A stretch of 38,727 nucleotides of DNA from Methanomicrobiales archaeon (lineage in GTDB: Archaea > Halobacteriota > Methanomicrobia > Methanomicrobiales > Methanospirillaceae), in assembly GCA_025350045.1 (NCBI GenBank), contig JANXYM010000029.1, forward strand, positions 1-38,727, written 5' to 3'. Position numbers and translations under genes: made by a program. Positions 18,565 to 35,360 of the stretch are shown in pieces; positions within the stretch are counted from its first letter, which is position 1; every line of letters begins with the position of its first letter. The notes beneath the pieces were generated by a model, which had not been told where the DNA came from, searched no databases, and saw only the letters and a program-made list of their open reading frames with translations.

Positions 18565-18794
18565 CCTGACCACTGTTTCCTTTGCCGGTTCATGACGGGA
18601 TTACCGGATAAAAGAGGAACTGGCTGCTCCACACAGGATCATCTGTTGCAGAACTATTAATGTTGCACGATTTTTTAAGGCTGTCGTGAGCCCATTTCAG
18701 CCCGCACGTTCGCCGGGGAATCGGGAGGAGTTTTTTAATCAGGTGTCCACATGAAAAAGCGGCCGGTCACTTCTCCCGGACTGGAAAGGAGTGA

Positions 18795-19586
18795 TCATTC
18801 TTCACCAGGGTGTGCCAGCTGACCTACCCAGGGAATCGTGCGATGCTCTATCTTTTTCAGAACCAGGGTGAACAGAATACCGAGAATTGCACAGATGAAT
18901 ATTCCTACATAGAGTTTTTCGATCTCAAAGGTCTGCCACGCGTTCCAGATCATGGCACCGATGCCATGATTTGCTGAAACGAACTCAACACCCACGACAA
19001 CAATCAGTGACATCCCAAGGGCAATCCGGATACCGGTAAAGATCATGGGCAGGCTCGCGGGTAACACGACCCGGGTGAACAGTTGCGTTTTTGAGGCTCC
19101 GTAATTTTTCGCAACTTCAAAATAAACCTTGTTGATGTTTCTCACTCCCCCCATTGCGTTAATCAGGGTGATAAAGAAACACCCGAATGCGATGGCCATT
19201 ATCTTTGAGAGCTCCCCGATTCCGAATATGACCATGAGCAGGGGGAAGATCGCCAGCTTGGGGATGGGGTACGTTGCTGCAACGATCGGGTCGAGAAACA
19301 GCCGGGTTTTTTCTGATACACCCATGAGGAGACCAATAGTAATTCCGGGGATAGTCCCAATGAGAAAACCTACAAACACCCGGAACAGCGTAATGGAGAG
19401 ATTGGTCTGGATCTCGCCATCCGCCAGCATCCCAAAGAACGCAAGGAAAATAAGTGACGGGACCGGGAAGAAGAGGGGATTTATTAACCCAAGACGCCCG
19501 CACAGTTCCCAGAGGAGAAGTACCCCGGTTAGAGACACCAGCGGAAGAAGCACAGGATAGACCCGGTCAGCATTAAGCATCATCAT
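18795..19586 (-). CDS. ABC transporter permease (SsuC/TauC/NrtB type)
   Basis: Six-helix membrane subunit of an importer for small organic anions (263 aa). The EAA coupling loop is visible as VAKNYGASKTQLFTRVVLPA followed by SLPMIFTGIRIALGMS (about residues 157-190). The start overlaps the ATPase gene by 14 nt, with three successive ATG codons. Last gene of the binding protein-ATPase-permease operon. The substrate cannot be read from this subunit; aliphatic sulfonates, taurine, nitrate and pyrimidine precursors are all used by relatives. Confidence 0.93.
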   Translation of the reverse strand: MMMLNADRVYPVLLPLVSLTGVLLLWELCGRLGLINPLFFPVPSLIFLAFFGMLADGEIQTNLSITLFRVFVGFLIGTIPGITIGLLMGVSEKTRLFLDPIVAATYPIPKLAIFPLLMVIFGIGELSKIMAIAFGCFFITLINAMGGVRNINKVYFEVAKNYGASKTQLFTRVVLPASLPMIFTGIRIALGMSLIVVVGVEFVSANHGIGAMIWNAWQTFEIEKLYVGIFICAILGILFTLVLKKIEHRTIPWVGQLAHPGEE

Positions 19587-20355
19587 GATCTCCTGTCATT
19601 GATCGCTCGACTTCGAGCCGGATACTGTTCCAGATCTTCGTTTTGAGTGCAAGGAACTCCGGTGTATTTTCCAGATCGATATCCCTGGGCCGGTCAATAC
19701 CGACCGACAACACGTCCTTGATCCGGCCGGGGACACTCGTCATCACGAGCACCCGGTCACCGAGCAGGATCGCTTCATCGATATCATGGGTTACAAAGAT
19801 CACGGTTTTTTTATGATCACTCCAGATCTTCAGGAGCTCTGCCTGCAGGATGAGCCGGGTCTGGGCATCGAGCGAACCAAAAGGTTCGTCCATGAGGAGG
19901 ATCTCCGGGTTATTCACAAATGCCCGTGCAATCGCGATTCTCTGTCGCATGCCCACGGACAGTTCGTGCGGGTTCCGCCAGGCATGCTTTGAGAGGCCCA
20001 CCCGCTTTAAAAAATCCAGGGATCGGGCATACCGCTCTTTCCGGGGCACCCCCCGCATTTCCAGGCCGAATGCAACATTATCCATGACATTCATCCAGGG
20101 AAAGACACCGTGTTCCTGGAAGACCATGGAATTCATTGGACCGGCATGGTTATTCCCGGAATAGCACACTTCCCCGGAACTGGGTTTTAACAGGCCGGCT
20201 ATAATCTTGAGGAGGGTTGATTTACCACAGCCGCTGGGCCCGAGAATGCAGAGAAATTCCCCTTCTGTAGTTTCAAAACTGATGTCGTCAATTGCCCGGG
20301 TGGCTTTTTCGCCTTCGCCAAAAATTTTTGAGATATGCCGGCATGCCAGTTTCAT
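19573..20355 (-). CDS. ABC transporter ATPase (SsuB/TauB/NrtD type)
   Basis: Nucleotide-binding subunit (260 aa). Walker A is GPSGCGKST at residues 39-47, the signature is LSVGMRQRIAIARAF (about 136-150), Walker B is ILLMDEPFGSLD (about 156-167) and the switch His lies in VIFVTHDIDEAILLGD. All catalytic residues are kept. It overlaps the binding-protein gene upstream by 4 nt and the permease gene downstream by 14 nt, so the three are one transcription and translation unit. Confidence 0.95.
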   Translation of the reverse strand: MKLACRHISKIFGEGEKATRAIDDISFETTEGEFLCILGPSGCGKSTLLKIIAGLLKPSSGEVCYSGNNHAGPMNSMVFQEHGVFPWMNVMDNVAFGLEMRGVPRKERYARSLDFLKRVGLSKHAWRNPHELSVGMRQRIAIARAFVNNPEILLMDEPFGSLDAQTRLILQAELLKIWSDHKKTVIFVTHDIDEAILLGDRVLVMTSVPGRIKDVLSVGIDRPRDIDLENTPEFLALKTKIWNSIRLEVERSMTGDHDDA

Positions 20356-21359
20356 GTAGTTTGTTGCCTGCCATCAGTTGTATTGTGTAATACCCCGTTG
20401 GCATAGGTTACATAACTCATATCGTACAGTTGATCATCGTTCAACTTCTGGGTGATCTTTTTGTTTGCATACATCCAGTTAATGTAACCTCTTATGGGCT
20501 CCCGGGGCAGATTGCCGTCAGCAGCAATCGGGTACCAGCAGCTCTGGTTCAGCAGCTCCCGGTCAAGATGTGTATAATTCCCGAGGATCACAAGGTTCCG
20601 TTCCGTCTTTCCTTCGTTATATTGTTTCACGCCTTTAAGGTAGGCAACCATAAACCGCCTCCCCAGATCAGGATCCTTATCAAGGAGAGCGGGGCCGTAA
20701 TAGAGGGGGATGGGCCAGTCAGGGAGGAAATCCTGTGCCGGTACAAGTACTACGGCCGAACCGTTGTTTATAGCCTGGGTGATATACGGTTCCGTGACAA
20801 GGCCGGCATCAACGGCACCATTCTTGAATGCCGGGATAACGGATGCAAAGTCCATATCCACAATCTCGACATCGTCACGGGAAAGGTTGCCCAGAGCAAG
20901 GGCACGATAAAGATCGTAATCCGAATCCCGTTGTGCGATCTTCCGGCCCTTCAGATCAGCTACGTTTGTAACAACCCCCTTATCGAAAAGGTCTTTTCGC
21001 ACCATCAGAGCATAAGCAGTACAGGAACCCGGCGTAAGTCGTCCTTTATCGGCAACGATACGGACATGTTCACCTTTTGCGATTACGTTGATCAGCCCGA
21101 TTTTTACCGGCCCTGTTGAAGCGCCGATATCACCATTAATCAGGAGGGGGAGAGCTGCTGCGGTCAGGGTCTTTTCAAGCCTGACATCTATTCCCTGTTC
21201 TGCAAAGTAGCCTTCATCGATGGCTATGTAAATAGGGCCGTTTGCAGTTGTGGGCTGATATGAAACCGTGACCGTTTTCATAGCAGGCGCAGGAGAAAGG
21301 CATCCGCAGATTATTACGCCGCAGACAAGCAACGTCATAAAAAACAGTACATTTTTCAT
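20352..21359 (-). CDS. ABC transporter substrate-binding lipoprotein 1 (SsuA/NMT1-like)
   Basis: Extracellular binding protein of 335 aa. A signal peptide ends with lipobox ICGC and the lipidated Cys at residue 20. The mature domain starts TVTVSYQPTTANGPIYIAID, followed by EGYFAEQGIDVRLEKT, the NMT1/SsuA fold. Two-lobed motifs are LKGRKIAQRDSDYDLYRALA and FKNGAVDAGLVTEPYI (about residues 178-193). It is the first gene of the importer operon and lies back-to-back with ligase 1. A close paralogue is at 23240-24277. The ligand is unknown. Confidence 0.92.
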   Translation of the reverse strand: MKNVLFFMTLLVCGVIICGCLSPAPAMKTVTVSYQPTTANGPIYIAIDEGYFAEQGIDVRLEKTLTAAALPLLINGDIGASTGPVKIGLINVIAKGEHVRIVADKGRLTPGSCTAYALMVRKDLFDKGVVTNVADLKGRKIAQRDSDYDLYRALALGNLSRDDVEIVDMDFASVIPAFKNGAVDAGLVTEPYITQAINNGSAVVLVPAQDFLPDWPIPLYYGPALLDKDPDLGRRFMVAYLKGVKQYNEGKTERNLVILGNYTHLDRELLNQSCWYPIAADGNLPREPIRGYINWMYANKKITQKLNDDQLYDMSYVTYANGVLHNTTDGRQQTT

Positions 21360-21579
21360 GGATCTATCACCTATGATATGAACGGGATATCACTTAAATC
21401 ATGTTTTTTTCTCCCGCGGGAATGCCTGCCGTTTCCGTGTTTTTTAACGAAGTTTTCTTTAAGGGTTTCACGGACTGCAGGACGCTGTGCGTTGAGCGGG
21501 AAGAATATCCGATCCTTTGAAAAAAGGGCAGAAGGGAGATAGATTCAATAATAATCATAGGAGAGGTTTTACTAACACC
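21360..21579. promoter_or_regulatory. Divergent intergenic region between importer and ligase 1
   Basis: No gene. It must carry both promoters. Ligase 1 has AGGAGAGG at about 21559 before its ATG at 21580 and an A/T-rich AGATTCAATAATAATC at 21541 as a possible TATA-like box. A shared control region would tie the importer to the ligases. Confidence 0.4.
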
Positions 21580-23097
21580 ATGAATGCTGAACCCGAGCGT
21601 TTTACCATCGGAGATCTTATATTTAACTATAACCAGGATCCGGACCATAATGCCATTGAATCCCCGGGATACCTGCCGCTCACCTATCGTGATCTTCGGA
21701 AACAGGTTCTTTATGTTATCAAATCACTCAATGCATTGGGATATCACCGAAACGACAGGATCGCCGTTATCGCACCTGCAGGTCCTGAAACAGCAGTCCT
21801 CGTTGTTTCCATAATGGCAGGATTTACTTTTTTCCCGCTTAATCCTCATTATAAGAAGAAAGAGTTTGAGAGTAATTTCTCCCAACTTAAAATAAAAGCT
21901 GTCATTATACAAAATGGGTGTGAGACCGAAGCCAGTGAAGCGGCTATATCAGATAATATTCCCATTATTCAGTTAATACCGCTCAATAATAAAGCCGGGA
22001 TATTTTTACTGGAGCCGGCTCAAGAACAGAAGCCACGGGATGCTGAATTTGGAAAATCCTCGGATATTTCTCACATATTTTTAACATCAGGAACTACAGC
22101 CGAGGCAAAAATAGTTCCTCTTTTACAGAGACAGTCTTTCCTGGCAAGGCCACTACAGATAAAGCCACTGAAAATTACCCGTACTGACAGATGTCTTCAC
22201 ATTGTGCCATATTATCACGGGATGGGCATCGGACTGCCTCTTCTGTGCGTATGGCTTGCCGGAGGGACGGTAATCTGTGTAAAAGACTTTATTCCTTCGG
22301 ATTTTTTTTCCCTTCTGGAATCATACCGCCCTACCTACTATATGGCCGGACCTGCACATCATCAGGCCATCCTTCAGGAACTTAAAAAAAGATCCCGGTA
22401 TAATCTGAAAAATAATTCGCTGCGCTTCATTCTTACAGGTTCCGCATCTCTACCCGCCAAGGTATGCCACGAACTGGAGGCTTTACTGGGGGCCCCGGTT
22501 GTAGAACATTTTGCCTCATCTGAAACAGGGACGATATCCATCAATTTCCCTCCCAAACGGGGATCGGTAGGCATTCCGGTAGTTGAGCATCTGGCTATCA
22601 TAAATGGGAACGGTACCTACCTCGGACCATATGAACAGGGAGATATCGTTGTTAAAGGAGAAACGGTTTTCAGCGGGTACGAAAATGCTCCCGATGAAAA
22701 CAAAGCCGCTTTTACTGACGGCTGGTTCAGGACGGGAGATACGGGATACCTCGATGACGACGGATATCTCTTCCTCACAGGTCGTAAGAAAGACCAGATC
22801 AATAAAGGGGGAGAGAAAATATCACCGGAGGAGATTGATACCTTACTTCGGTCTCACCATGGGGTATCTGAGGCGATGGCGTTCCCGGTTTATGATCCCG
22901 TTCTTGGAGAGGATATCGCTGCCATAGTCGTGCCAGCTGATGAAAAGATAACCGAAACCGAGCTGAGGATGTATCTCCTTGACCGACTCGTCCCGTTCAA
23001 GGTACCCCGCAGGATCTATTTTGTTGATAAGATTCCGAAGAATGCCGCAGGCAAACCCCTACGACATGTGGGTTCAGAGCGATATAGTCAGCGATAG
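21580..23097 (+). CDS. ANL-family adenylate-forming ligase, paralogue 1
   Basis: Activates a carboxylate as acyl-AMP and passes it to CoA or a carrier thiol. Start at ATG 21580 (505 aa), matching its paralogues (all start about 8 residues before TIGDLIF) and a ribosome-binding site; an in-frame ATG at 21517 is less likely. Motifs are TSGTTAEAKIVPL (P-loop, about residue 172), ASSETGTISINFPPKRGSVG (A5), GWFRTGDTGYLDDDGYLFL (A7), GRKKDQINKGGEKISPEEID (A8) and KNAAGKPLR with the catalytic Lys (A10). The P-loop lacks the usual Gly before x-P-K and has Ala in place of Pro, unlike ligases 2-4. A5 also differs (ASSE for GMSE), so this is the most divergent copy. Confidence 0.9.
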   Translation: MNAEPERFTIGDLIFNYNQDPDHNAIESPGYLPLTYRDLRKQVLYVIKSLNALGYHRNDRIAVIAPAGPETAVLVVSIMAGFTFFPLNPHYKKKEFESNFSQLKIKAVIIQNGCETEASEAAISDNIPIIQLIPLNNKAGIFLLEPAQEQKPRDAEFGKSSDISHIFLTSGTTAEAKIVPLLQRQSFLARPLQIKPLKITRTDRCLHIVPYYHGMGIGLPLLCVWLAGGTVICVKDFIPSDFFSLLESYRPTYYMAGPAHHQAILQELKKRSRYNLKNNSLRFILTGSASLPAKVCHELEALLGAPVVEHFASSETGTISINFPPKRGSVGIPVVEHLAIINGNGTYLGPYEQGDIVVKGETVFSGYENAPDENKAAFTDGWFRTGDTGYLDDDGYLFLTGRKKDQINKGGEKISPEEIDTLLRSHHGVSEAMAFPVYDPVLGEDIAAIVVPADEKITETELRMYLLDRLVPFKVPRRIYFVDKIPKNAAGKPLRHVGSERYSQR

Positions 23098-23239
23098 TCA
23101 TATCATAAGGAAAAAGGCATACAAAATCGGATTTAAACCGGGATTGGTTAAAAAATGATATCGCTAAAGGCTTATGGTGGTTTCTCCAGATCGTTGAAAA
23201 AATATTAGGAGATTCCGGCGCATCCGGGTTCCATTTCTT

Positions 23240-24277
23240 TTACCCGGTATTTGTCGTATTCCGCAGCACCCCGTTGGCATAGGTCACATAACTCATGTCA
23301 AACAATTGATCTTCGCTCATATTCTGGGAGATCTTCTTGTTTGCATACATCCAGTCCAGGTACTCCCTGACAGGTTTTTTCGGCACAGTGCCGTCAGCTG
23401 CAATCAACCACCAGCAGGTCTGGTTCAGCAGGTCCCGGTCAAGATGCGTGTAATTCCCGAGAATCGCAAGGTTCCGTTCCGTTTTCCCTTCATTATATTG
23501 TCGTACTCCCTGCAGGTACGCAACCATGAAACGCCTTCCCAGCTCCGGATCCTTATCAAGGAAAGCCGGGCCGTAATAGAGGGGAAACGGGTTTTCGGGT
23601 ATGAAATTCTGTGCCGGTACCAATATGACGGCTGAGCCGCTATTAAGGGCAAGGGTGAGGAACGGTTCAGCAACAAGACCGGCATCGATTGCCCCATTCT
23701 TGAATGCCGGGATAATCGTTGGGAATTCCATCTCAACGGTGTCCACATCATTACGTGAAAGGTTACCCACAGCCAGGGCACGATAAAGATCGTAATCTGA
23801 ATCGCGTACTGCAATCTTCCGGCCCTTCAGATCGGATACGTTCGTGACGAACCCTTGATCGAAAAGGTCCTTACGTACCATTAAGGCATATCCGGTACAG
23901 GAGCCCGGAGCAATGCTTCCTTTATCGGCAACAATTCTGACGTGTTCGCCTTTCGCTACTGCGTTGACCAGTCCGATCTTTAACGGTCCCGAGTATACAG
24001 CAATGTCCCCGCTCAGTACGAGAGGGAGAGCTGCTGCAGTACTCGGGACCTTTACCAGCTCCACGTCAATTCCCTGCCGGGCAAAGAAGCCTTCTTCCTT
24101 GGCGATATAGAGCGGCTCATAGTCAGCGATAGGGAGGTACGCTATCCTGATCGTTTTCATTGCAGGAGCCGTTGCTACCGTGGGAGACGGGAGTGCCTGA
24201 GATATGCATGCAGTAACAGTAACCGCGGAAATAATCAGGAGGATTAGAAATAATAATTTCAGTTTCAATGTTATCAC
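23240..24277 (-). CDS. ABC transporter substrate-binding lipoprotein 2 (orphan paralogue)
   Basis: Binding protein of 345 aa, a close paralogue of the 20352 gene and visibly similar over its whole length (for example KGEHVRIVADKG, RDSDYDLYRALA and GKTERNL with the following ILGNYTHLDR). The signal peptide ends VTAC, with the lipid Cys at about residue 24. No ATPase or permease adjoins it, so it must share the importer at 18795-20355 or be a sensor or scavenger. Pocket-lining differences between the two (for example NGSAVVLVPAQDFLPDWPIP against SGSAVILVPAQNFIPENPFP) suggest a related but distinct ligand. Confidence 0.92.
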   Translation of the reverse strand: MITLKLKLLFLILLIISAVTVTACISQALPSPTVATAPAMKTIRIAYLPIADYEPLYIAKEEGFFARQGIDVELVKVPSTAAALPLVLSGDIAVYSGPLKIGLVNAVAKGEHVRIVADKGSIAPGSCTGYALMVRKDLFDQGFVTNVSDLKGRKIAVRDSDYDLYRALAVGNLSRNDVDTVEMEFPTIIPAFKNGAIDAGLVAEPFLTLALNSGSAVILVPAQNFIPENPFPLYYGPAFLDKDPELGRRFMVAYLQGVRQYNEGKTERNLAILGNYTHLDRDLLNQTCWWLIAADGTVPKKPVREYLDWMYANKKISQNMSEDQLFDMSYVTYANGVLRNTTNTG

Positions 24278-24339
24278 AAATGACTCTCTTGATGTTCACG
24301 GCAATCCCTTTTTAATTTTTTTCTTTGTTCCTGATGAAT

Positions 24340-24528
24340 TCCGGGAGATGTTGTAGTAATTGGATTGTCCAGCTTCCCGTGGGTATAGGGTGTATAGCTC
24401 AGGTCAAACAGCTAATTATCGGAAGGGATCCGGGTAATCTTCTTGTTTGCAGACCTCCAGTTCGTATCGCCGAGAAGGATCATTCCCTCATCCGCGATTA
24501 TCCGGACAGGTGCACCTTTGGAGAACAT
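24340..24528 (-). pseudogene. Remnant of a third SsuA-like binding protein
   Basis: The minus strand reads FSKGAPVRIIADEGMILLG, then DTNWRSANKKITRIPSDN, a TAG, and LFDLSYTPYTHGKLDNP. These match KGEHVRIVADKGSIAPG and, much later, DWMYANKKISQNMSED-Q-LFDMSYVTYANGVLRN of paralogue 2. About 180 codons between the two blocks are deleted and the Gln codon CAG has become TAG. It is therefore a decayed duplicate, lying directly behind the start of paralogue 2. Confidence 0.75.
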
Positions 24529-24590
24529 ACGATATGTACCGGAACCTCACTTTTCCGGGTTCATGGCGCAGGAGAATCAGATAAAAAAGC

Positions 24591-24602
24591 ACATATTGAA
24601 TA
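24591..24602 (+). promoter_or_regulatory. Shared promoter-like motif before ligase 2
   Basis: ACATATTGAATA lies with its end 33 nt before the ligase 2 ATG. The identical 12-mer sits at 29699-29710, at the same distance from the second possible start (29743) of the carrier/thioesterase gene. Likely a TATA-like element or operator. Confidence 0.5.
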
Positions 24603-24634
24603 TTCCCTATCTCCTATAACCTACGGAAATATTC

Positions 24635-26140
24635 ATGGAAAATGAAAAAAGCCTCTGTGTCAGGGATCTTATTGTAAACGGCAGCCAGGATCCGGATTCA
24701 CCTGCGATCGAATCCCCGGGATACCAGCCGCTCACCTACCGCGACCTGCGAGCGCAGATAACGTACGTGGTTCGATCCCTGAACGCCCGGGGCTTCCGTC
24801 CGAATGACAGGATTGCCGTCACCATGCCAAACGGGCCGCATGCCGCAGTCGCGATCCTGTCAATTATGGCCGGGTTTACTGTTATTCCCTTTAATTCCCA
24901 GTACAAAGAACCGGAATATGCCTCGCTCTTTTCCTTTCTTGGGATCAAAGCGGTCCTTGTGCAAAAGGGAGAGGCCTCTGCAGCCGGTACCGTTGCAGAA
25001 GCACACAAAATCCCCGTTATCGAAGTCAGTTGTTCGCAGGAAACAGCCGGTTTATTTACGCTCGTTCCCGAAGCTGATACCAAAGCCAAAGAAGCCATAT
25101 ACGCAACTCCACGGGATATTGCAGCCATTAAGCTCACTACGGGCACTACTGCAAAACCAAAGGCTGTTCCGGTCAGCCAGAAACGTTTTTTTGCAGGAAT
25201 GCAGATACTGAATGCATTCTCCGGCCTCAGTCATAAGGATAAAAACCTCCATTTTTTATCGCTGGACACGGGTTTTGGCTTTGAAACCCCTCTGGGGGGT
25301 ACCCTTCTTACAGGGGGATCTCTGGTCTGTCTCCGGGATTTTATACCATCAGATCTTCTGAACCTCCTCGTTACCTGCCGGCCAACCTATTACTGGGGGG
25401 GGCCGGCACATCATCAGGCTATTATTAAGGAACTAAAAAAGGTCCCCCGGGATCAACTGGCACATCTTTCTCTCCGGATGATCTGTTCAGGCTCTGCAGC
25501 GGTATCTCCGGCAATCACACAGGAATTGGGTTCATTACTCGGAATTCAGGTTATCGATGTATACGTTATGTCGGAGGCATACATCTCCATAAATAATCCC
25601 CCAAAACAAGGTTCAGTAGGGATTCCCTTCATCAGCGAACTGGAAATCCGGGATGATAATGACCATACGCTTCCGGCAGGCCAGGCCGGGGAGCTTGTTC
25701 TGCGGGGGGAACTGGTGTTTGACGGGTACCTGGACGCACCGGAAGAAAATGCTGCGGCATTCAGGGACGGCTGGTTCAGGACGGGCGATATAGGGTATCT
25801 CGATAATGAGGGGTATCTCTTCATTACGGGTCGTAAAAAGGAGATGATCAACAAGGGAGGTAGAAAGATCGCTCCCGCGGAGGTTGATGCTGTCCTGTTG
25901 TCTCATCCTAGAATAGTGGATGCAATGTCATTCATGGTTCACGATCCCTTACTCGGGGAGGATATCGCAGCCATGGTCGTGCCGGCTGATGAAAAGATAA
26001 CTAAAACCGAGCTGCGGATGTACCTCCTTGACCGTCTGGTCCAGTCCAAAGTCCCCGGGAGGATCTATTTTGTGGATAAGATTCCCCGGAACCCTGCGGG
26101 AAAACCCCTGCGGCACATGGGCACAAAGAAGTATTCCTGA
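24635..26140 (+). CDS. ANL-family adenylate-forming ligase, paralogue 2
   Basis: Same family and length (501 aa) as the neighbours. P-loop TTGTTAKPKAVPVS (about residue 166), A5 MSEAYISINNPPKQGSVG, A7 GWFRTGDIGYLDNEGYLFI, A8 GRKKEMINKGGRKIAPAEVD and A10 NPAGKPLR with the conserved Lys. Residues around the acyl pocket (YYWGGPAHHQAI, LSLDTGFGFETPL) differ from ligases 3 and 4, so substrate choice may differ. The N-terminus begins MENEKS and the leader shares a 12-mer with the carrier/thioesterase gene, which begins MENENH, suggesting common regulation. Confidence 0.9.
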   Translation: MENEKSLCVRDLIVNGSQDPDSPAIESPGYQPLTYRDLRAQITYVVRSLNARGFRPNDRIAVTMPNGPHAAVAILSIMAGFTVIPFNSQYKEPEYASLFSFLGIKAVLVQKGEASAAGTVAEAHKIPVIEVSCSQETAGLFTLVPEADTKAKEAIYATPRDIAAIKLTTGTTAKPKAVPVSQKRFFAGMQILNAFSGLSHKDKNLHFLSLDTGFGFETPLGGTLLTGGSLVCLRDFIPSDLLNLLVTCRPTYYWGGPAHHQAIIKELKKVPRDQLAHLSLRMICSGSAAVSPAITQELGSLLGIQVIDVYVMSEAYISINNPPKQGSVGIPFISELEIRDDNDHTLPAGQAGELVLRGELVFDGYLDAPEENAAAFRDGWFRTGDIGYLDNEGYLFITGRKKEMINKGGRKIAPAEVDAVLLSHPRIVDAMSFMVHDPLLGEDIAAMVVPADEKITKTELRMYLLDRLVQSKVPGRIYFVDKIPRNPAGKPLRHMGTKKYS

Positions 26141-26243
26141 CACTAACCGACAAATCATTCAGATACGTGCAATATTCCCATGGTCCCTGGAACGAGGGGG
26201 ATTTTTTCATCACCGGTACCTGCAGACAATCGGTGAATAGTAA

Positions 26244-26291
26244 ACAGATTCGGACAGGCAAAATTTTCAATAGCCGTCACTTACTATGTTG
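26244..26291 (+). repeat. 48-nt direct repeat, copy A (before ligase 3)
   Basis: Matches 27899-27946 with one mismatch. It holds GGCAAAATTTTCAATAGCC, probably the promoter. Lies 6 nt before the ATG of ligase 3. Confidence 0.85.
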
Positions 26292-26297
26292 GGGACG

Positions 26298-27803
26298 ATG
26301 GAAAACTTCGGATTTTTTACCATCAGGGATATGATCTTTCATGGTAATCAGGATCCGGACCATACTGCGATTGAATCCCCGGGATACCAGCCGCTCACGT
26401 ACCGTGACCTGCGAGCGCAGATTACCTCGGTAGTAAAAACCCTCAACTCTCTGGGGTTTAAACGAAATGACAGGATCGCCGTGGTAATGCCGGCCAGTCC
26501 GGAAACGGCGGTCTGTATTGTATCTGTAATGTCAGGATTCACGGCTCTTCCGATCAATCCTCAGTATAAGATGCAGGAATTTGAGGCCTTTTTTTTATCT
26601 GCCGGAATTGCAGCCATTGCTATTGAAAAAGATTTAAAAACCGCGGCGAGAACTGCAGCCAATAACCAGAACATCCCGGTTATAGAAATAATTCCCGATA
26701 GCCGAACGGCGGGAATATTTTCACTGGAACCAGTAAATCCGGATGAAACACAAAACGCAGTGTTTGCAGGTCAAGAAGACACCGTTACCCTGGTGCAGAC
26801 ATCCGGAACAACATCTATTCCAAAAATGATCCCCTATTCGCAAAAATTGTTTTGCGAAGCATGCCATACCTATCGGCAATTGCTGCACTACAGCAACAAG
26901 GACAGAAGTCTGCTCATTATTCCTTACTATCATATTCTGTACCTTGGAACACTCCTCGCTACATTGTCTGCCGGAGGGACGGTAATCTGCACAAAGGATT
27001 TTATTCCTTCTGATTTTCCCCGGCTGTTAACGACAACCCGGCCAACTTTTTACTGGGGAGTACCTGCACTTCACCAGGCAATAATTATGGAACTTATGAA
27101 GCTCCCGTTGGAAACAACAAGAGCCGATTCATTGCGTTTTGTCGGGACGGTATCCTCCTTCATGCCCGACACCCTCCGAAAAGAGATGGAATCACGGCTG
27201 GGGACCCCCATGATCGAAGTGTATGGTATGTCCGAAGCGGTACTGATATCACTCAATGTACCCTACAAAAGCGGATCCGTGGGAATCCCCGCGATAGAAT
27301 TTCTCAAAGTAATGGATGAAGACGGTTTTTCCCTGGGCAGCAGAGAACAGGGTGAGATAGTAATAAAGGGTACGATAGTCTTCAGCGGGTACGACAATTC
27401 ACCGGAAGAGAATGCTCAAGCATTTCATGACGGCTGGTTCAGAACCGGAGATCTGGGACACATCGATACTGAGGGATACCTCTTCATCACCGGCCGGAAA
27501 AAGGAGTTGATCAACAAGGGTGGGGAGAAGATCTCACCGGAAGAGATTGATGCCGTTTTACGGTCGCACCCGTGCGTGAAGGAGGCGATGAGCTTCCAGA
27601 TTCATGATCCTACCCTAGGAGAGGATATTGCGGCTATGGTGATACTGGCGGATTCCGCTGTGTCTGAAGAGGAATTACGCAGGTACCTTCTCAACCGCCT
27701 AATCCAGTTCAAGGTCCCCAAAAGGATCTGGTTTGTTGATGCTATTCCGAAAAATCCGGCTGGAAAACCATTGCGGTACGTGGGCACAAAGAGGTATTCC
27801 TGA
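26298..27803 (+). CDS. ANL-family adenylate-forming ligase, paralogue 3
   Basis: 501 aa from the ATG at 26298 (MENFGFF), chosen because paralogue 4 starts the same way; a second ATG at 26286 would lie partly inside the upstream repeat. P-loop TSGTTSIPK at residues 168-176, A5 YGMSEAVLISLN, A7 GWFRTGDLGHIDTEGYLF, A8 GRKKELINKGGEKISPEEID and A10 NPAGKPLR. Residues 379-480 differ from paralogue 4 at only about three positions by eye, while residues 90-165 have little in common. That is a mosaic pattern typical of duplication with gene conversion. Confidence 0.9.
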   Translation: MENFGFFTIRDMIFHGNQDPDHTAIESPGYQPLTYRDLRAQITSVVKTLNSLGFKRNDRIAVVMPASPETAVCIVSVMSGFTALPINPQYKMQEFEAFFLSAGIAAIAIEKDLKTAARTAANNQNIPVIEIIPDSRTAGIFSLEPVNPDETQNAVFAGQEDTVTLVQTSGTTSIPKMIPYSQKLFCEACHTYRQLLHYSNKDRSLLIIPYYHILYLGTLLATLSAGGTVICTKDFIPSDFPRLLTTTRPTFYWGVPALHQAIIMELMKLPLETTRADSLRFVGTVSSFMPDTLRKEMESRLGTPMIEVYGMSEAVLISLNVPYKSGSVGIPAIEFLKVMDEDGFSLGSREQGEIVIKGTIVFSGYDNSPEENAQAFHDGWFRTGDLGHIDTEGYLFITGRKKELINKGGEKISPEEIDAVLRSHPCVKEAMSFQIHDPTLGEDIAAMVILADSAVSEEELRRYLLNRLIQFKVPKRIWFVDAIPKNPAGKPLRYVGTKRYS

Positions 27804-27898
27804 AACGGCAGACATACCCACTCATCTCCATGCTCAGGTCCACAGAAATTGCAAGTCGCTTTCCTTCGCAGGATGTTATGAAGATTGTTGCATGATAC

Positions 27899-27946
27899 AC
27901 AGATTTGGACAGGCAAAATTTTCAATAGCCGTCACTTACTATGTTG
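27899..27946 (+). repeat. 48-nt direct repeat, copy B (before ligase 4)
   Basis: Near-identical to 26244-26291, with one mismatch (C to T). It lies 5 nt before the ATG of ligase 4, so the duplicated unit includes the leader and coding start. Confidence 0.85.
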
Positions 27947-27951
27947 TAACG

Positions 27952-29460
27952 ATGGAAAACTTCGAACTTTTTACCATCAGGGATATGATCTTTCATGGTA
28001 ACCAGGATCCGGACCATTCTGCTATTGAATCCCCGGGATACCAGCCGCTCACGTACCGGGATCTCCGGACGCAGATTACCTCGGTAGTAAAAACCCTCAA
28101 CTCTATGGGGTTTAAACGAAATGACAGGATCGCCGTGATAATGCCGGCCGGTCCTGAGACTGCAGTAAGTATTATTTCCATTATGGCAGGATTTACATCA
28201 CTGCCTCTCAATCCCCAGTATAAAGCGCAGGAATTCGACAATTATTTCTCAAAATTCCGGATAAAAGCCATTATTGTACGGGAGGGTTCTGATACCGCTG
28301 CCCGGGCTGTGGCAATATCACATAACATCCCGGTTATTGAATTACAACCAGACTCGGATATTGCAGGAAGATTCGAGCTGAAATCAGCGATATGTCCTTC
28401 TCCCCAGGAGGCAGTTTTTGGATTGCCATCTGACATCGTCAGTCTGATGCTGACATCCGGCACCACATCCACACCAAAAATTGTGCCGTATTCCCAGAAA
28501 CTGTTCAGCAAAGTTACTCATGCGTATCGCGATTCATTACAAGTAACACCTTCTGACAGGAGCCTGCATATTGTTCCCTATTTTCACGGTCTGGGAATTT
28601 TAGGAACGCTCCTTGTGCCACTCCTCGCAGGCGGAACGGTAATCTGTACAAAGGATTTCATTCCCTCAGATTTTCCCGGCCTCCTGAAAACAAGCAGGCC
28701 CACTTATTATTGGGGCGTACCGGCACTTCACCAGGGTATCTTGTACGAATTGAAAAAAGTCCCGGCAGAAGAACTCAAAAATAATTCACTTCGCTACATA
28801 GGTACCGTCTCTGCGTTCATGCCCGATAATGTACGCTGTGAACTGGAATCGTTATTGGCTACTCCCCTGACTGAAGTGTATGGGATGTCGGAAGCAGCGT
28901 ATATCTCGCTTAATTTCCCCTATAAATGTGGATCCGTAGGCATTCCTGTGATCGAGTCCTTAACTATCATGGATGAAAACTACGATCCGGTCAAACGCGG
29001 TGAAACGGGGGAGATTGTGATTAAAGGTGGGGTGGTCATCAGCGGATACGAGAATGCCCCGGAGGAGAACAAAGCAGCATTCGTTGACGGCTGGTTCAGA
29101 ACCGGAGATCTGGGACACATCGATACTGAGGGATACCTCTTCATCACCGGCCGGAAAAAGGAGTTGATCAATAAAGGCGGGGAGAAGATATCACCGGAAG
29201 AGATTGATGCCGTTTTACGGTCGCACCCGGGCGTGAAGGAAGCGATGAGCTTCCGTATTCATGATCCCGCCCTAGGAGAGGATATTGCGGCAATGGTGAT
29301 ACTGGCGGATTCCGCTGTGTCTGAAGAGGAATTACGCAGGTACCTTCTCAACCGCCTAATCCAGTTCAAGGTCCCAAAAAGGATTTGGTTTGTTGATGAA
29401 ATTCCAAGAGGTCCAACCGGTAAACCACTCCGGCAGGTAGGCACGGAACGGTATTCATGA
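27952..29460 (+). CDS. ANL-family adenylate-forming ligase, paralogue 4
   Basis: 502 aa from ATG 27952 (MENFELF). The frame is open a further 73 codons upstream, but that part overlaps the end of ligase 3 and the direct repeat and is not protein-like. P-loop TSGTTSTPK at residues 168-176, A5 YGMSEAAYISLNFPYKCGSVG, the same A7 and A8 as ligase 3, and A10 GPTGKPLR. The acyl pocket region reads YYWGVPALHQGIL. Catalytically intact by motif. Followed by the 3' remnant of a further copy. Confidence 0.9.
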   Translation: MENFELFTIRDMIFHGNQDPDHSAIESPGYQPLTYRDLRTQITSVVKTLNSMGFKRNDRIAVIMPAGPETAVSIISIMAGFTSLPLNPQYKAQEFDNYFSKFRIKAIIVREGSDTAARAVAISHNIPVIELQPDSDIAGRFELKSAICPSPQEAVFGLPSDIVSLMLTSGTTSTPKIVPYSQKLFSKVTHAYRDSLQVTPSDRSLHIVPYFHGLGILGTLLVPLLAGGTVICTKDFIPSDFPGLLKTSRPTYYWGVPALHQGILYELKKVPAEELKNNSLRYIGTVSAFMPDNVRCELESLLATPLTEVYGMSEAAYISLNFPYKCGSVGIPVIESLTIMDENYDPVKRGETGEIVIKGGVVISGYENAPEENKAAFVDGWFRTGDLGHIDTEGYLFITGRKKELINKGGEKISPEEIDAVLRSHPGVKEAMSFRIHDPALGEDIAAMVILADSAVSEEELRRYLLNRLIQFKVPKRIWFVDEIPRGPTGKPLRQVGTERYS

Positions 29461-29466
29461 CACATA

Positions 29467-29589
29467 CGCTACCTTCTTGATTATCGGGTCCAGTTCAAGG
29501 TCCCCAAAAGGATCTGGTTTGTCGAAGCAGTCCCGAAAAATCCGGGTGGAAAACCGCTCCGGAATAGAGCAACCCGGGAATATTCCTGA
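29467..29589 (+). pseudogene. 3' remnant of a fifth ligase paralogue
   Basis: Forty in-frame codons read RYLLDYRVQFKVPKRIWFV, then EAVPKNPGGKPLR and REYS before TGA. They match the C-terminal 40 residues of ligases 3 and 4 (RYLLNRLIQFKVPKRIWFV, IPKNPAGKPLR). The remainder of the gene is missing. It shows that the array once held another copy or that an unequal crossover left a tail. Confidence 0.85.
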
Positions 29590-29698
29590 GCATTACAGTT
29601 TTTTACAACCAACGGACTGCCACAACCGCCCGGTTTTTTTCCTGATGCCCGGGTTCCGGTTCCCATGAGTGTTCTCCCGCACAGACGGGAATAAATCA

Positions 29699-29710
29699 AC
29701 ATATTGAATA
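29699..29710 (+). promoter_or_regulatory. Shared promoter-like motif before the carrier/thioesterase gene
   Basis: ACATATTGAATA, identical to 24591-24602. It ends 33 nt before ATG 29743 and 21 nt before ATG 29731; the first spacing equals that of ligase 2. The gap 29590-29698 has no gene. Confidence 0.5.
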
Positions 29711-29742
29711 GTTCTTGTCAACAATGAGATATGGAACAGTCC

Positions 29743-30909
29743 ATGGAGAATGAAAATCATCACTCCGTTAAAAAGGAGAACCTTCCCGGCCCCACAACGA
29801 TCGAAGAGGAACTCCAGCGGCTCTGGAAAGATATCCTGGATCTCCCTTCAGTCACACCCGATGATGATTTTTTCCTGTTCGGGGGAAATTCACTGACCGC
29901 GATCGAACTGCTCATCAGGATCCAACGGGAATATAAAGTCAATTTTCCTCCCGATACGATCTACCGGTACCCGACAATCCGGCAACAGGCGGTTCTGATA
30001 GCCGGGAAGGTGGCCAAAACACCACAGTATCACACGCTGATCGTCCCGATACGCGAGGGTGGGATTAAGCCTCCCCTTTTCTGTATCCACCCCCTTGGCG
30101 GTTGGATGGATCATTATACCCGGGTCTCCCCATATATTGACAGGAACCGGCCTATATTCGGGATCCGGGCACGGGGGCTCGAACCAACGGAGGTCATGCC
30201 CCTGACTGTGGAAGAGACGGTGCGGGAGCAGGTGGATGCAATAAAAAGCGTCCAGAAAGACGGGCCCTACCATATTATGGGATTTTCCAACGGGGGAACT
30301 ATTGCCTATGAACTTGCCTGTCAGATTGCCGAAAAAGGAGACCGGGTTGCATTCCTGGGCCTCATCGATGTCTCTGCGCCGGCACCTGAAGTCAGGTATT
30401 TAAAGACCCTGACAAAAACATTTTTTCCCGGCCGGATTTTAGGGAAGATCCCGGCTTTTATTGAAAGCCATCTGAAAGCAAACCCTGACAGCAGAATATT
30501 TTTCATCGTTTCAAAGTCCATAAGATTCGTTTTTCACAAGACATTGTTCAGATCGGGTTCCAAATCCCTTCCTGCATCAGTATCTGATGATTTTTTTGAT
30601 GCTACCTTTGACCAGACAATTCTGGCACGGTATCCCAAAGAAAGCCATAATCACATGAAAGCGCAGATGAAGGCATCGCGTATCTATCTCCCTCACCAGC
30701 TCCCCGGTGATCTCATTCTTTTCTCGACTATGCCCGATCCCATCCTGTTTCCCGGGGATATTACACGGGGCTGGAGTTCCTACGTAACCGGTAAAACAAC
30801 AGTTATTGATGTCACCGGCGATCACAGTAATCTGTTCGATGAGCCACATCTTGGGTATCTTGGACTGAGAGTTGACAAGAGCCTGGCGTCGGTCGATGAA
30901 CGTGGATAA
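29743..30909 (+). CDS. Free-standing carrier protein-thioesterase didomain (PCP-TE)
   Basis: Two NRPS-type domains without A or C partners (388 aa). Residues about 17-90 form a carrier domain with the phosphopantetheine Ser in DDFFLFGGNSLTAIELL (Ser50). After a short linker comes an alpha/beta-hydrolase thioesterase with oxyanion loop FCIHPLGGWMDHY (about 113-125), nucleophile IMGFSNGGTIAYE (Ser182), an Asp in LGLIDVSAP and a terminal His in DVTGDHSNLFDE. It would hold an acyl or aminoacyl group loaded by the ligases and release it by hydrolysis or transfer. Start at 29743 (MENENHH) is preferred over 29731 because leader spacing then matches ligase 2. It overlaps the PPTase gene by 14 nt. Confidence 0.9.
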   Translation: MENENHHSVKKENLPGPTTIEEELQRLWKDILDLPSVTPDDDFFLFGGNSLTAIELLIRIQREYKVNFPPDTIYRYPTIRQQAVLIAGKVAKTPQYHTLIVPIREGGIKPPLFCIHPLGGWMDHYTRVSPYIDRNRPIFGIRARGLEPTEVMPLTVEETVREQVDAIKSVQKDGPYHIMGFSNGGTIAYELACQIAEKGDRVAFLGLIDVSAPAPEVRYLKTLTKTFFPGRILGKIPAFIESHLKANPDSRIFFIVSKSIRFVFHKTLFRSGSKSLPASVSDDFFDATFDQTILARYPKESHNHMKAQMKASRIYLPHQLPGDLILFSTMPDPILFPGDITRGWSSYVTGKTTVIDVTGDHSNLFDEPHLGYLGLRVDKSLASVDERG

Positions 30910-31663
30910 TGCAATCGGGGATTTACTGGATTTCCGCACCATCAGCATAGGACAATTTTTTTTACCAGAACCCCGTGGAAAGGTTCCTGTACTGGAAAAC
31001 GACAGAGTACATGTCTGGTCAGCGGAGTACTCTGATCTCGATGCATGTTATGAGAGCCTCTCTGCACAGATTAGCCCGTTTGAACGGGAAAAATTTTCAG
31101 GATTCAGGAAACCCGGAGATGCCCGGCGCTTCGTGATCAGGCACGGAATTCTCAGACTCGTTCTCAGTGACTATACACACTTTGAACCCTCATTGTTACC
31201 ACTGGTAATCAGTGAAACGGGTAAACCAGGGATGGATCCAGAAAGCGATTTTTCTGAACTCTCGTTCAGTCTCTCCCATACTGAGGATTTTTTTGTAATA
31301 GGTATAACAAAAAAATGTGATATCGGTATAGATATCATAAAAATGGACAACCATTACCCGTTTCAGGATACGGCAGATTACCTTTTCACCGCGGGTGAGA
31401 AAAGATTGATCACGGGAGCGGGAACGGATCAACGATACCGGCTGTTTATCAGGATCTGGGCCCTTAAGGAGGCACTCCTCAAGGCAACCGGGGGCTCTGT
31501 CCGGATGATGAACGAAACGGATATCTCCGAACTCATACAGGAATCATATGGAGAGGGAGTTTATTCAATACCCTGCCATGATGTGCCATACAGGTTTTTC
31601 ATCCACGAGTGCGATTGGGGTCATGACCATCATTGTGCAATTGCAGTAAACCTGGATAAATAA
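30896..31663 (+). CDS. Sfp-type 4'-phosphopantetheinyl transferase
   Basis: Transfers phosphopantetheine from CoA to the carrier Ser, here presumably Ser50 of the overlapping PCP-TE. Sfp/HetI family motifs are SFSLSHTEDFFVIGI (about residues 123-137), KKCDIGIDIIKM (metal Asp142 and Asp146) and FIRIWALKEALLKATGGS (about 184-201, the W-x-x-K-E-A-x-x-K box). 255 aa from ATG 30896; a TTG at 30872 would add eight residues inside the upstream gene. Sfp-type enzymes are uncommon in archaea, where fatty acid and polyketide synthesis is rare, so its presence supports a real carrier-protein pathway. Confidence 0.92.
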   Translation: MNVDNAIGDLLDFRTISIGQFFLPEPRGKVPVLENDRVHVWSAEYSDLDACYESLSAQISPFEREKFSGFRKPGDARRFVIRHGILRLVLSDYTHFEPSLLPLVISETGKPGMDPESDFSELSFSLSHTEDFFVIGITKKCDIGIDIIKMDNHYPFQDTADYLFTAGEKRLITGAGTDQRYRLFIRIWALKEALLKATGGSVRMMNETDISELIQESYGEGVYSIPCHDVPYRFFIHECDWGHDHHCAIAVNLDK

Positions 31664-31750
31664 GAAGAGGAATTCCGGGAATGCGTACACCCGGGCTGGT
31701 CGGCACAGCATCGGTGTCAACCCGCCCGGAATAATCCTTAAGTTCCGGCA

Positions 31751-32315: not shown

Positions 32316-33485
32316 TTAGTTTTTATCCATACACGCGTTAAGCACCTGCTCCACGAGGCAGAGAGTGCCGTTTATTCCCGCAAAGGGAGACGGGGCAAGC
32401 CGGACGCTTCCCCGCAGCGGAGGGGTGATGCCGGCAAAGGCCCGGGCTCCACAGACAGAGCGCTCAAAAGATGACCCTGTCACCAGATCGGGATTATACC
32501 GTCCGATCAGGGAGCGTACCCCTTCAAGCCCGGTAACCTGTTCAACCGGATATTTCGATTCGCCCGGAGCATTGCGTGATCCTATACACCGGATATCCGC
32601 ATCCAGGTACCGTTCGAGTGTTGCAGCAACATGCACGGCATAGGAAAAACCGGCAAAAATTACGACTGAGGGGGGATCGAACCGGAGCAGGTACTTGTCA
32701 CACGCTCTGACCATCCGCTCCTCCTGCTGTTCGAGTTCTGAAAAGACCCGGTCTACCTCGGCGTTCTCAAATACATCGCCCAATTTCCTGAACGTGGCCT
32801 CGATTGCCCGTAATCCGAGTGTCCCGCCACAATACTCACCAATACCGCTTGCAAAATCCTCGTTGATACCGATCGTATACGGCGAAGCGTGGTACACCTT
32901 ATCGAGCAGGTCATGAGAAAAAACCGTCCCTACGGGAATACCGGCAAGATTCAGCAGTCGCATGATCTCCTGCACATTGCCCGCAGCGAATGGATCGAAC
33001 AGGCAGACACCATCAATATTCACACCAACAACGCCCGGATCAACCTGAGGTGCCAGTACCGAAAGGGCATTTTTGTATCCAGCCTCGACATCCCCGGAAA
33101 AACCCGGGCTGTCAACAAGGATCACGTCATGCTTTTCGAGCATGGACCGGATATCTTCTCCGAGAATTGCCGGAACACAGGTAGTTACCACAGCGATACG
33201 TTTACCCTGGCCGGACAACCCGCCGATCACTTCGTTGAGCCGGTCTTCTGAGCCAAAGATGATCTCATGTTCGAGAATGAAGGTGCCATGCAGGGGGGCA
33301 CGGAGAAGTGTAGTAGGATAATAGTAACAGCCGCTCGATCCATGGATAACCACGACCATCCCCTCAAATCCGGCAAGACAGGCAGCAGCCCCGGTCATCG
33401 CACAGGGCCAGAGGGGATTGGTGCAGTCAGGCATGAAGCTGGCGCCTCCACCGGTGGAGCATCCTCCGCACACCTGCGGTTCCAA
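32316..33485 (-). CDS. Nitrogenase-like component 1 subunit (NifK-like)
   Basis: Nitrogenase component 1 family, 389 aa as drawn (shorter than NifK at over 500). P-cluster-type Cys are at residues 28, 53 and 103: WPCAMTGAAACLAGFEGM, IHGSSGCYYYP and VTTCVPAILGEDI, a 25-residue first spacing like NifK. Later blocks are VDSPGFSGDVEAGYKNAL and GINEDFASGIGEYCGGTLGL, with a C-terminal KYPVEQVTGLEGVRSLIGRY. The drawn start is TTG 33485; ATG 33434, overlapping the upstream stop by 8 nt, is possible, but [12 protein letters not shown] just before it looks like true protein. The enzyme's substrate is unknown. Confidence 0.85.
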   Translation of the reverse strand: MEPQVCGGCSTGGGASFMPDCTNPLWPCAMTGAAACLAGFEGMVVVIHGSSGCYYYPTTLLRAPLHGTFILEHEIIFGSEDRLNEVIGGLSGQGKRIAVVTTCVPAILGEDIRSMLEKHDVILVDSPGFSGDVEAGYKNALSVLAPQVDPGVVGVNIDGVCLFDPFAAGNVQEIMRLLNLAGIPVGTVFSHDLLDKVYHASPYTIGINEDFASGIGEYCGGTLGLRAIEATFRKLGDVFENAEVDRVFSELEQQEERMVRACDKYLLRFDPPSVVIFAGFSYAVHVAATLERYLDADIRCIGSRNAPGESKYPVEQVTGLEGVRSLIGRYNPDLVTGSSFERSVCGARAFAGITPPLRGSVRLAPSPFAGINGTLCLVEQVLNACMDKN

Positions 33486-34473
33486 CCGGTCTGCCGGGGC
33501 CGAGCGGGAGACAGCGCGTACCTGGCTCTCTCATATGGATTCGAACTGCCTCTGCCACCTCTGACGAAGAATGGACACTATCCAAATCACCCATGGCAGG
33601 GTCAAACGATGCAACCATTCCCTTAAGATCGGAAAAACCTGCAAGAGTGTCGCTCTGGAACAGGTGCTCTTTTTCCACGGCACGACTGCTGTCAATGCCA
33701 AATGTTTCTGCAACTGCCTCAACAAACGAGAGGGTCCCGGAGAGCCCGAGCGGGAAGGACGGGATGAACGGGGTGCCAAAACGCTGCTCTAAGTACATTC
33801 CCACGGTCTGGAGCAAAGGTTCACGCAGGATGTTGAGCCGGGCTGCACCCAGCATCCCGATATCATCGAACCCGATATCATGCACGAACCTGATATTCAC
33901 GGATACACCGAGCATGTCGAGGAGACGGACTACCTCTGCATAGTTCTCCTCAACCTCATATTCAAGATTCATCTCGCCAATGATATTCACGCTTTCCTGC
34001 ACAGGCAAGGGCTCAGCGGTATCGGCTAGTGCACGGAGAGCATTTGCTACTCCGTTCTGGAAGGTGCCCCCGAGAAAACCGGCTGTTGGCACAATGACCA
34101 CCGGCACCCCAAACTCCCTGCCGCAGATAGCAGCTACATCATCACCAATAGTATCAACAATGCAGGTAGAGAGCACGAAGATCGCATCCGGTCCGCTTTC
34201 TGCCACAGATCCAAGGGTCCGGAGCAATGCCCCTTCCCCGCCAAAGACAATATCGCTTTCGCAAAGGGCAGTAGAGACAAGATCTGGCAGGGTGACGGTC
34301 TCATTGTCAAGCCCGGTTGCGTGTAACAGGGAGAAGTTATGATGAGTGCACCCCTTTGGCCCATGAATAACACTGGCGGTATTACGCACATGGGTAGTAA
34401 CCGAGAGGGCCCCGGTGAGGGTGCAGCCCCCGAATCTAGATGTATGAATAGGCAAGGGCTTCAAGCTCATCAA
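33427..34473 (-). CDS. Nitrogenase-like component 1 subunit (NifD-like)
   Basis: Partner of the NifK-like subunit, 348 aa against about 480 or more in NifD. P-cluster-type Cys are at residues 17 ([12 protein letters not shown]), 42 ([13 protein letters not shown]) and 104 ([17 protein letters not shown]). The STCxxxxIGDD block is the NifD/NifK signature. [21 protein letters not shown] and VRFVHDIGF-type elements follow. I see no obvious equivalents of the FeMo-cofactor ligands. The last 35 residues, from about [11 protein letters not shown], look unlike the family, and the other frame reads better there. It overlaps the NifH-like gene by 38 nt and the NifK-like gene by 59 nt. Confidence 0.85.
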
Positions 34474-35248
34474 TCTCTAACGGGGAGGGTATAGTAAAAC
34501 GGGTATTTTCCATTACCCGCATTGCAAGGCTGCGATAACATTCAGCCTGTGCAGAGGCAGGTTCGTACTCTATGACCGTCTTCCGGTTGAGTTCCGCCAG
34601 CTGTACGACCCTGTCCCGGGGAATGTACTGGATAAGCGAGCTGTTCACCCGCTTTGCAAATTCCGCCACCAGCTCTTCTTCATTGGGCTGGTTCCTGGCA
34701 TTGCAGATCACCCCGGCCAGACGGCAGGTACTCTTGGTTCTCGAAGACAGGCGTTGAATCGCTTTGCAGATGTTGTTCGCTGCATACAAAGACATCAGTT
34801 CGCCTGAGGTGACAAGGTATACATCCTGCGCATATCCCTCGCGCATCGGCATGGCAAATCCCCCGCAGACGACGTCGCCGAGCACATCGTATACAATGAC
34901 ATCACCTTTTAATGCTCCAAACTTCTCGAGCAGCTGGAACGTGGCGATGATCCCCCGCCCGGCACAGCCTACACCGGGTTCCGGTCCTCCCGCTTCAACG
35001 CAGCGGACACCGTTAAACCCGGTGAACTCAATCTCCGACAGGGTAATGGGTGCTTCTCCCCGGACCCGGACAAGATCCATGACGGTGGGGATAAAGTTCC
35101 CGTGCATCAGCATCCGGGTGCTGTCCCGTTTGGGATCGCATCCGATCTGCAGGACGTCAAGCCCCATACCGGAGAGGGCAGCGGAGAGATTGGCAGAGGT
35201 GGTGGACTTCCCGATACCCCCCTTGCCGTACAGGGCGATCTGTTTCAT
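34436..35248 (-). CDS. Nitrogenase-like Fe protein (NifH/CfbC-like)
   Basis: Dimeric ATP-driven reductase feeding electrons to the D/K pair. From the ATG at 35248 (270 aa): P-loop GKGGIGKST at 8-16, switch DPKRDSTR (38-45), 4Fe-4S ligands Cys95 (GVGCAGRG) and Cys128 ([13 protein letters not shown]), and late [21 protein letters not shown]. It resembles group IV proteins such as CfbC of F430 synthesis, but CfbC works with one homodimeric CfbD, whereas two different component 1 subunits follow here. A seven-residue longer start (35269) is possible. First gene of a three-gene overlapping operon. Confidence 0.92.
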
Positions 35249-35264
35249 TACCGTACTATGGAGT

Positions 35265-35360
35265 GGCAATTTATATTAGATCTCCTGATGTTAACAAAAG
35301 TTAAAATAATATTGATAGAAACTTTATAGAATTATCTCAATTTTTGTTTATCTTTAACAA
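35265..35360 (-). promoter_or_regulatory. Control region of the nitrogenase-like operon
   Basis: A/T-rich. The minus strand holds CTAATATAAATTG (about 35266-35279) and TTCTATAAAG (about 35322-35331), both TATA-like. Two inverted repeats are seen: TTAAC-AAAA-GTTAA (35291-35304) and TTGTT-N7-AACAA (35344-35360). They could be repressor sites. No GGAA-N6-TTCC NrpR-type site is obvious. Confidence 0.4.

Follow-up and report, generated by a model that had tools for sequence, protein, structure and literature searches.

Why should a methanogen keep four stand-alone adenylation enzymes beside a single carrier protein? The question is raised by contig JANXYM010000029.1 of assembly GCA_025350045.1, analysed here over its full 38,727 nucleotides (the window). 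The window encodes four ANL ligases, each a free-standing adenylation (A) domain, together with one free didomain of a peptidyl carrier protein and a thioesterase (PCP-TE) and one phosphopantetheinyl transferase (PPTase). Our answer, to which we assign a probability of roughly 0.6, is that these genes form a split, trans-acting, one-module A-PCP-TE synthetase with an uptake system of its own, encoded on an accessory island. The host is a Methanoregula, as judged from its named sister genomes, so that the archaeal methanogen proposed in a first-pass annotation of the window is confirmed; its genome (2.53 Mb in 121 contigs) is 95.9% complete, and what is said here about the genome as a whole is based on family searches. 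The synthetase genes and the traces of their rearrangement are the following.

21580..23097, plus strand: ANL ligase 1, a free-standing A domain (Pfam PF00501 and PF13193)
24635..26140, plus strand: ANL ligase 2, orthologous to the A domain in the A-PCP-TE fusion of PtaB.Bin085 (62% identity; tree support 100/100)
26298..27803, plus strand: ANL ligase 3 (Pfam AMP-binding and AMP-binding_C)
27952..29460, plus strand: ANL ligase 4 (Pfam AMP-binding and AMP-binding_C)
29461..29589, plus strand: ligase-tail remnant, the last 42 codons of a further ligase, read in frame and with a stop at the end (read-through translation)
29690..29756, plus strand: start of the PCP-TE gene with its leader, which is homologous to that of ligase 2 at 24583-24648 (local score 37)
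29743..30909 (alternative start 29731), plus strand: free PCP-TE didomain (Pfam PF00550 and PF00975)
30896..31663, plus strand: Sfp-type PPTase (Pfam PF01648, 54.6 bits against a cut-off of 25)

The Pfam matches of the ligases, the PCP-TE and the PPTase all lie far above their cut-offs, and with the open reading frames (ORFs) they bear out the parts that the first-pass annotation had listed, including the overlap of the PPTase gene with that of the PCP-TE (14 bp). The intact catalytic lysine claimed for the ligases is present in all four, as the GK(P) lysine, and the claimed carrier Ser50 and thioesterase Ser182 are right given the start at 29743. Both serines, as well as Asp213 and His365 (numbered from 29731), are invariant in five homologues. 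The PCP-TE gives the sole PP-binding match of the genome, in agreement with the single carrier proposed earlier. No condensation (C) domain (PF00668) was matched in the whole genome, as had been claimed for the locus; the accompanying claim for ketosynthases needs the qualification that one weak family match lies elsewhere in the genome, outside the window. With A, carrier (thiolation, T) and TE domains and no C domain, the locus has the domain set of a monomodular A-T-TE synthetase and lacks the domain that marks a canonical nonribosomal peptide synthetase (NRPS) assembly line. Its domains are encoded by separate ORFs with intervening stop codons, whereas they form a single polypeptide in PtaB.Bin085, UBA247 and G266.

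The PPTase is the only ACPS-superfamily protein of the genome and, with an ACPS domain in about 256 residues, exceeds the 220 residues that delimit group II (Sfp-type) enzymes. Of the motifs proposed for it earlier, the WxxKEA box is present (WALKEA), but the pair Asp142/146 is not the metal pair: the GIDxxK aspartate is Asp146, and the metal positions are Asp146 and Ile148. Position 148 is Ile here, Val in PtaB.Bin085 and Thr in UBA247, in place of the middle Glu of the Asp-Xxx-Glu triad. That Glu occurs in all four archaeal PPTases surveyed previously, and variants with two metal residues have been described (PMC4103896). The island PPTase is of a two-metal-residue type, absent among those four archaeal enzymes.

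Across 232 genomes of the order, close relatives of the PCP-TE were recovered only in two other Methanoregula species, in each case as the C-terminal part of a longer protein. PtaB.Bin085 encodes one such fusion (897 residues from an inferred start) and UBA247 three, all with AMP-binding, AMP-binding_C, PP-binding and Thioesterase matches in one chain; another A-PCP-TE protein, from a genome of a different family, is 35% identical over 909 columns. Maximum-likelihood trees of the two halves are concordant, in that ligase 2 groups with the A domain of the PtaB.Bin085 fusion and the window PCP-TE with its PCP-TE half (63% identity; support 100/99). Sister to the ligases is a clade of A-PCP proteins from related archaea that also includes this 35% identical A-PCP-TE protein, and since its members carry a carrier in cis, the cis carrier is likely to be ancestral and free A domains to have arisen at least three times. 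Furthermore, the local score of 37 between the leader of the PCP-TE gene and that of ligase 2 was reached by none of 5000 shuffles, and other gene starts score at most 18. Such a leader, with its ATG, is what one would expect if the A domain had been deleted from a duplicated copy of a ligase 2-PCP-TE gene. Fused sister orthologues, concordant trees and the retained leader together imply that the PCP-TE and the ligase family were once one protein. Judged from the sequences, ligase 2 and the PCP-TE are descendants of an A-PCP-TE gene family that is still a single polypeptide in sister species, and we have hardly any doubt that the split layout derives from the fusion. Viral contigs held no relatives of the PCP-TE, and plasmid records gave just matches of about 27-31%, to terminal parts of NRPSs.

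The genes that belong with the synthetase are delimited by comparison with the relative G186, in which DNA homology stops at 18673 and restarts at 31751, about 85 unrelated bases occupying the position in between. Since the genes flanking this gap are adjacent to each other in both G186 and G188, the 13.1-kb block is an accessory unit; it is cleanly missing from close relatives and is present or absent as a whole. Its GC content is 48.7%, against 51.9% and 52.8% in the flanks, and PtaB.Bin085 has its version of the island at the same chromosomal site. The first-pass annotation had placed the carrier-TE protein and the ligases in one system, and the fused orthologues, the concordant trees and this clean pattern of presence and absence support it. 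The PCP-TE family adjoins or is fused to the ligases in all three Methanoregula genomes that have it, so that the finding which would have spoken against a common system, a PCP-TE never found with these ligases, was not made. Upstream of the ligases and between them, the island encodes a transport system.

18674..31750: accessory island of 13.1 kb with transporter, ligases, PCP-TE and PPTase (DNA comparison with relative G186)
18795..19586, minus strand: SsuC/TauC-like permease of an ATP-binding cassette (ABC) transporter (Pfam BPD_transp_1; 75% to a neighbour gene in UBA247)
19573..20355, minus strand: SsuB/TauB-like ABC ATPase (NCBIfam matches under cut-offs; 75% to a neighbour gene in UBA247)
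20352..21359, minus strand: substrate-binding lipoprotein 1, NMT1/SsuA-like, divergent from ligase 1 (Pfam NMT1 above cut-off)
23240..24277, minus strand: substrate-binding protein 2, divergent from ligase 2 (Pfam NMT1)
24361..24471, minus strand: binding-protein fragment (C-terminus) left over between the genes of binding protein 2 and ligase 2 (49% over 37 residues, one stop)

A permease, an ATPase and an NMT1/SsuA-like binding protein are thus encoded together, as in SsuABC/TauABC systems, with every NCBIfam match below the curated cut-offs for sulfonate, taurine or nitrate transport. The names SaoP and SaoA were dropped for the transporter genes, their scores being far under cut-off. The remnant at 24361-24471 points once more to duplication and loss within the array.

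Divergent pairs of a binding-protein gene and a ligase gene occur at several loci in four genomes. Besides those of the island, they are found on contig C31 of the present genome, in G171, in PtaB.Bin085, where permease and ATPase genes accompany the pair, and in UBA247, where a P-type ATPase gene separates its members. In G171 (L071) the binding-protein gene is broken into two frames. The binding-protein family is found in 4 of 39 Methanoregula genomes, exactly those with the ligase clade; the chance of the identical four is 1 in 82,251, assuming independent genomes. Binding protein 2 groups with its counterpart next to the fused gene of PtaB.Bin085 (93/91), and both cherries of the six-leaf binding-protein tree are cherries of the A-domain tree, a property of 3 of the 105 possible unrooted trees. 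The SsuABC-like transporter genes, the binding-protein/ligase pairs, the PCP-TE and the PPTase make up one accessory block. A scan with a sigma-70 promoter model gave no more matches than expected by chance, the model not being meaningful for archaea.

The island also records how the ligases multiplied. Ligases 3 and 4 represent a tandem duplication of 2.1 kb (73% DNA identity), and the remnant between ligase 4 and the PCP-TE is 91% identical in DNA to the tail of ligase 3 over 67 bp. A fifth ligase, divergent from a binding-protein gene, lies on contig C31 of the same genome (L072:8673-11406, corresponding to G000:C31:13673-16406). Neither this ligase, the tail remnant, the binding-protein gene at 23240-24277 and the dedicated transporter, nor the origin of the split from a fusion, had been noticed in the first-pass annotation.

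The two parts of the ligases have diverged to different degrees. Among ligases 1-4 the cores are 48-57% identical (67% for the pair 3/4), against 67-72% (91% for the pair 3/4) for the C-terminal, carrier-facing subdomain. The core of ligase 1 groups with a fused A domain on UBA247 contig C11 (98/93). That of ligase 2 is closest to its PtaB.Bin085 orthologue (63%), whereas its subdomain is 67-72% identical to those of the neighbouring ligases and 55% to that of the orthologue. In the substrate pocket, an anchored alignment shows the Arg of the motif LRFIRS, common to oxalate-CoA ligase and several fused relatives, replaced by Leu, Cys, Gly, Gly and Gln in ligases 1 to 5, which suggests that the paralogues may differ in substrate. 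In the same alignment, the first code position is His in ligases 1, 3, 4 and 5 and Thr in ligase 2. The rate of nonsynonymous substitution (dN) is well under the synonymous rate (dS) in every comparison, dS being saturated in most pairs. The ligases other than ligase 2 are members of the same A family, without a PCP-TE of their own in this genome, with diverged pockets and homogenised C-terminal subdomains.

In the mechanism that we propose, small carboxylic acids would be brought in by the lipid-anchored binding proteins and the ABC transporter, and each ligase would form the acyl-AMP of its own acid. The PPTase would convert the carrier to its holo form, and this one carrier would be loaded in trans by ligase 2 and probably by the other ligases too. 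The EntF-type TE could then take over the acyl group on its serine and let it go by hydrolysis, by passing it to an acceptor or by self-condensation. In favour of this scheme, the genome has just this one carrier, which some enzyme must load, and the carrier gene overlaps that of the sole PPTase. We expect with good confidence that at least one ligase loads the PCP in trans. For several ligases doing so the odds fall just short of even, and for the transporter importing the substrate they are about even. More tentatively still, the locus could work as one carrier with many activators. Duplicated A domains would each serve a different imported acid, with a binding protein of their own where one exists, gene conversion would keep their carrier-facing subdomains common, and all would share the one PCP-TE in trans, a family of products arising by the swapping of stand-alone A proteins.

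Several observations weigh against the trans-acting synthetase. The predicted binding-protein structure, with a mean local confidence score (pLDDT) of 35, is unusable for inferring a ligand. Separate trees of core and subdomain give the same shift for ligase 2, with modest support for the subdomain (84/80 and 85/77). The subdomains of the fused trio of UBA247 are homogenised as well, more weakly, and the homogenisation may therefore be gene conversion rather than evidence of a shared carrier. The closest solved relatives of the ligases are oxalate-CoA ligases (best for ligase 4: 5ie0, E 4.5e-78, query residues 18-499), and as far as the sequence goes, coenzyme A (CoA) may be the acceptor of the free ligases. 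Finally, linkage does not fully hold in the reverse direction, since G171 (81% complete) has ligases of the clade and no detected PCP-TE of the family. The last two points favour an alternative in which the carrier is served by ligase 2 alone or by no ligase at all. The remaining free ligases would be acyl-CoA ligases for imported acids, which might for instance feed reductive carboxylation to amino acids, and the PCP-TE would belong to a second small pathway. Ligase 5 fits it too: it and its binding protein are encoded on a different contig, and the homogenisation has not extended to its carrier-facing subdomain (60-62%). However, close relatives of ligases 1 and 4 are fused to a PCP-TE in UBA247, and the window ligases share the island with the PCP-TE, their genes being placed between it and the binding-protein genes. 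Residues of the CoA pocket do not tell fused from free members on inspection: the Phe position of CBAL (PMC10455477) is, by eye, retained in most of both, which leaves these residues undecided between CoA and carrier. We consider this alternative rather unlikely.

At siderophore loci, synthetase genes typically have uptake genes diverging from them. On a reading of this kind, the A, PCP and TE proteins might make a small secreted metallophore-like or signal molecule, with an oligomerising TE as in EntF, and the transporter would retrieve the product instead of the substrate. Distribution as an accessory island would suit such a system, and the PCP-TE indeed has its best matches, in sequence as in fold, in EntF and AB3403 (pLDDT of the PCP-TE model 64.6). 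On the other hand, the island encodes no exporter, the binding proteins belong to the NMT1/SsuA family rather than to siderophore-binding ones, and their one-to-one pairing with ligases of different pocket is better explained by substrates than by a product; we judge this reading less probable again. The same three domains without a C domain are found in the synthetases that dimerise aromatic alpha-keto acids to quinones or furanones, such as those for atromentin and polyporic acid. These have Val at the first code position (PMC10316625), and the absence of Val, replaced by His or Thr, places the window system outside this fungal subfamily and makes such chemistry highly improbable. An equally small chance is left to a decaying array, in which recombination would have broken an A-PCP-TE locus into pieces that no longer cooperate: the ligase-tail and binding-protein remnants and the tandem duplication are what decay would leave, but the motifs of ligases, PCP-TE and PPTase are intact and dN is well under dS.

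The split A-PCP-TE synthetase has relatives on several sides. Nearest are the uncharacterised fusions of PtaB.Bin085 and UBA247, which share its A family (47-67% identity) and its PCP-TE (45-63%) and have SsuABC-like genes nearby (in UBA247 on contig C25). They are one polypeptide, whereas the window has separate A genes and a lone PCP-TE. A-T-TE synthetases without a C domain are known from fungal quinone synthetases and bacterial RalA and EchA (PMC10316625); unlike these monomodular enzymes, the archaeal system is divided into proteins, with several A per T-TE, His or Thr as code residue and a linked transporter. The terminal PCP-TE of EntF and AB3403 resembles the window didomain at about 20% identity in the fold alignment, but here neither a C domain nor a cis A domain accompanies it. 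Among proteins of solved structure, oxalate-CoA ligases (AAE3, 5ie0; Pcs60, 8aff) match the window ligases best over the whole length, yet none of the five ligases of this genome has the same set of pocket residues, the LRFIRS Arg being replaced in all of them, and relatives of these ligases are fused to carrier and TE. Among methanogens, the NRPSs mru0068 and mru0351 of Methanobrevibacter ruminantium have been described (PMC2812497). They too are archaeal carrier-protein enzymes with TE and PPTase, but they are multimodular and contain C domains.

Our literature search found no description of a split system in which one carrier has several A proteins, of a dedicated transporter, or of occurrence in Methanoregula, and we regard these three aspects as new. 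The island lets the evolutionary break-up of a fused synthetase be read directly, with a fused form resembling the ancestor, the split form, a leftover leader and recombination scars all visible. It places A-PCP-TE chemistry and dedicated uptake in a methanogen genus that had no such pathway in the literature searched. The prediction that A domains share a carrier in trans is testable, and is of practical interest for the engineering of NRPS-like enzymes.

Other carrier-protein loci were encountered in related archaea. Two-module NRPS loci in G248 (L077), G266 (L076) and G227 (L026) have a gene for a beta-keto acid cleavage enzyme (BKACE), a short fragment only in G227, upstream of A-PCP, C-A-PCP-TE and PPTase genes, and their A-PCP pocket is nearly that of oxalate-CoA ligase. 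A BKACE gene (L033:7202-8053) likewise lies upstream of a fused A-PCP-TE gene of UBA247, and this recurring link may point to the acid used. In G171 (L069:981-1574) there is a C-terminal TE fragment that resembles the TE of the G227 NRPS. In three other Methanoregula genomes (G158, G181 and G195; L078, L079 and L080) a small AcpS-type PPTase adjoins an ANL ligase of about 29% identity to the window ligases, with genes resembling short-chain dehydrogenases/reductases in the cluster, which is possibly another carrier-protein pathway.

Downstream of the island, on the minus strand at 32316-35269, lies a nitrogenase-like set that encodes a NifH-like protein barely above the CfbC cut-off and two proteins of the nitrogenase component 1 type, far under the NifE, NifD and CfbD cut-offs, followed by a protein of 136-148 residues without a family. 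A tie between this set and the island was rejected, since the set lies beyond the island boundary and its genes are core to the genus (36 of 39 Methanoregula genomes have the component 1 type protein at 33427-34473). At the contig end (36188-38699, minus strand), pieces of a terminase large subunit and small ORFs likely mark the edge of a prophage.

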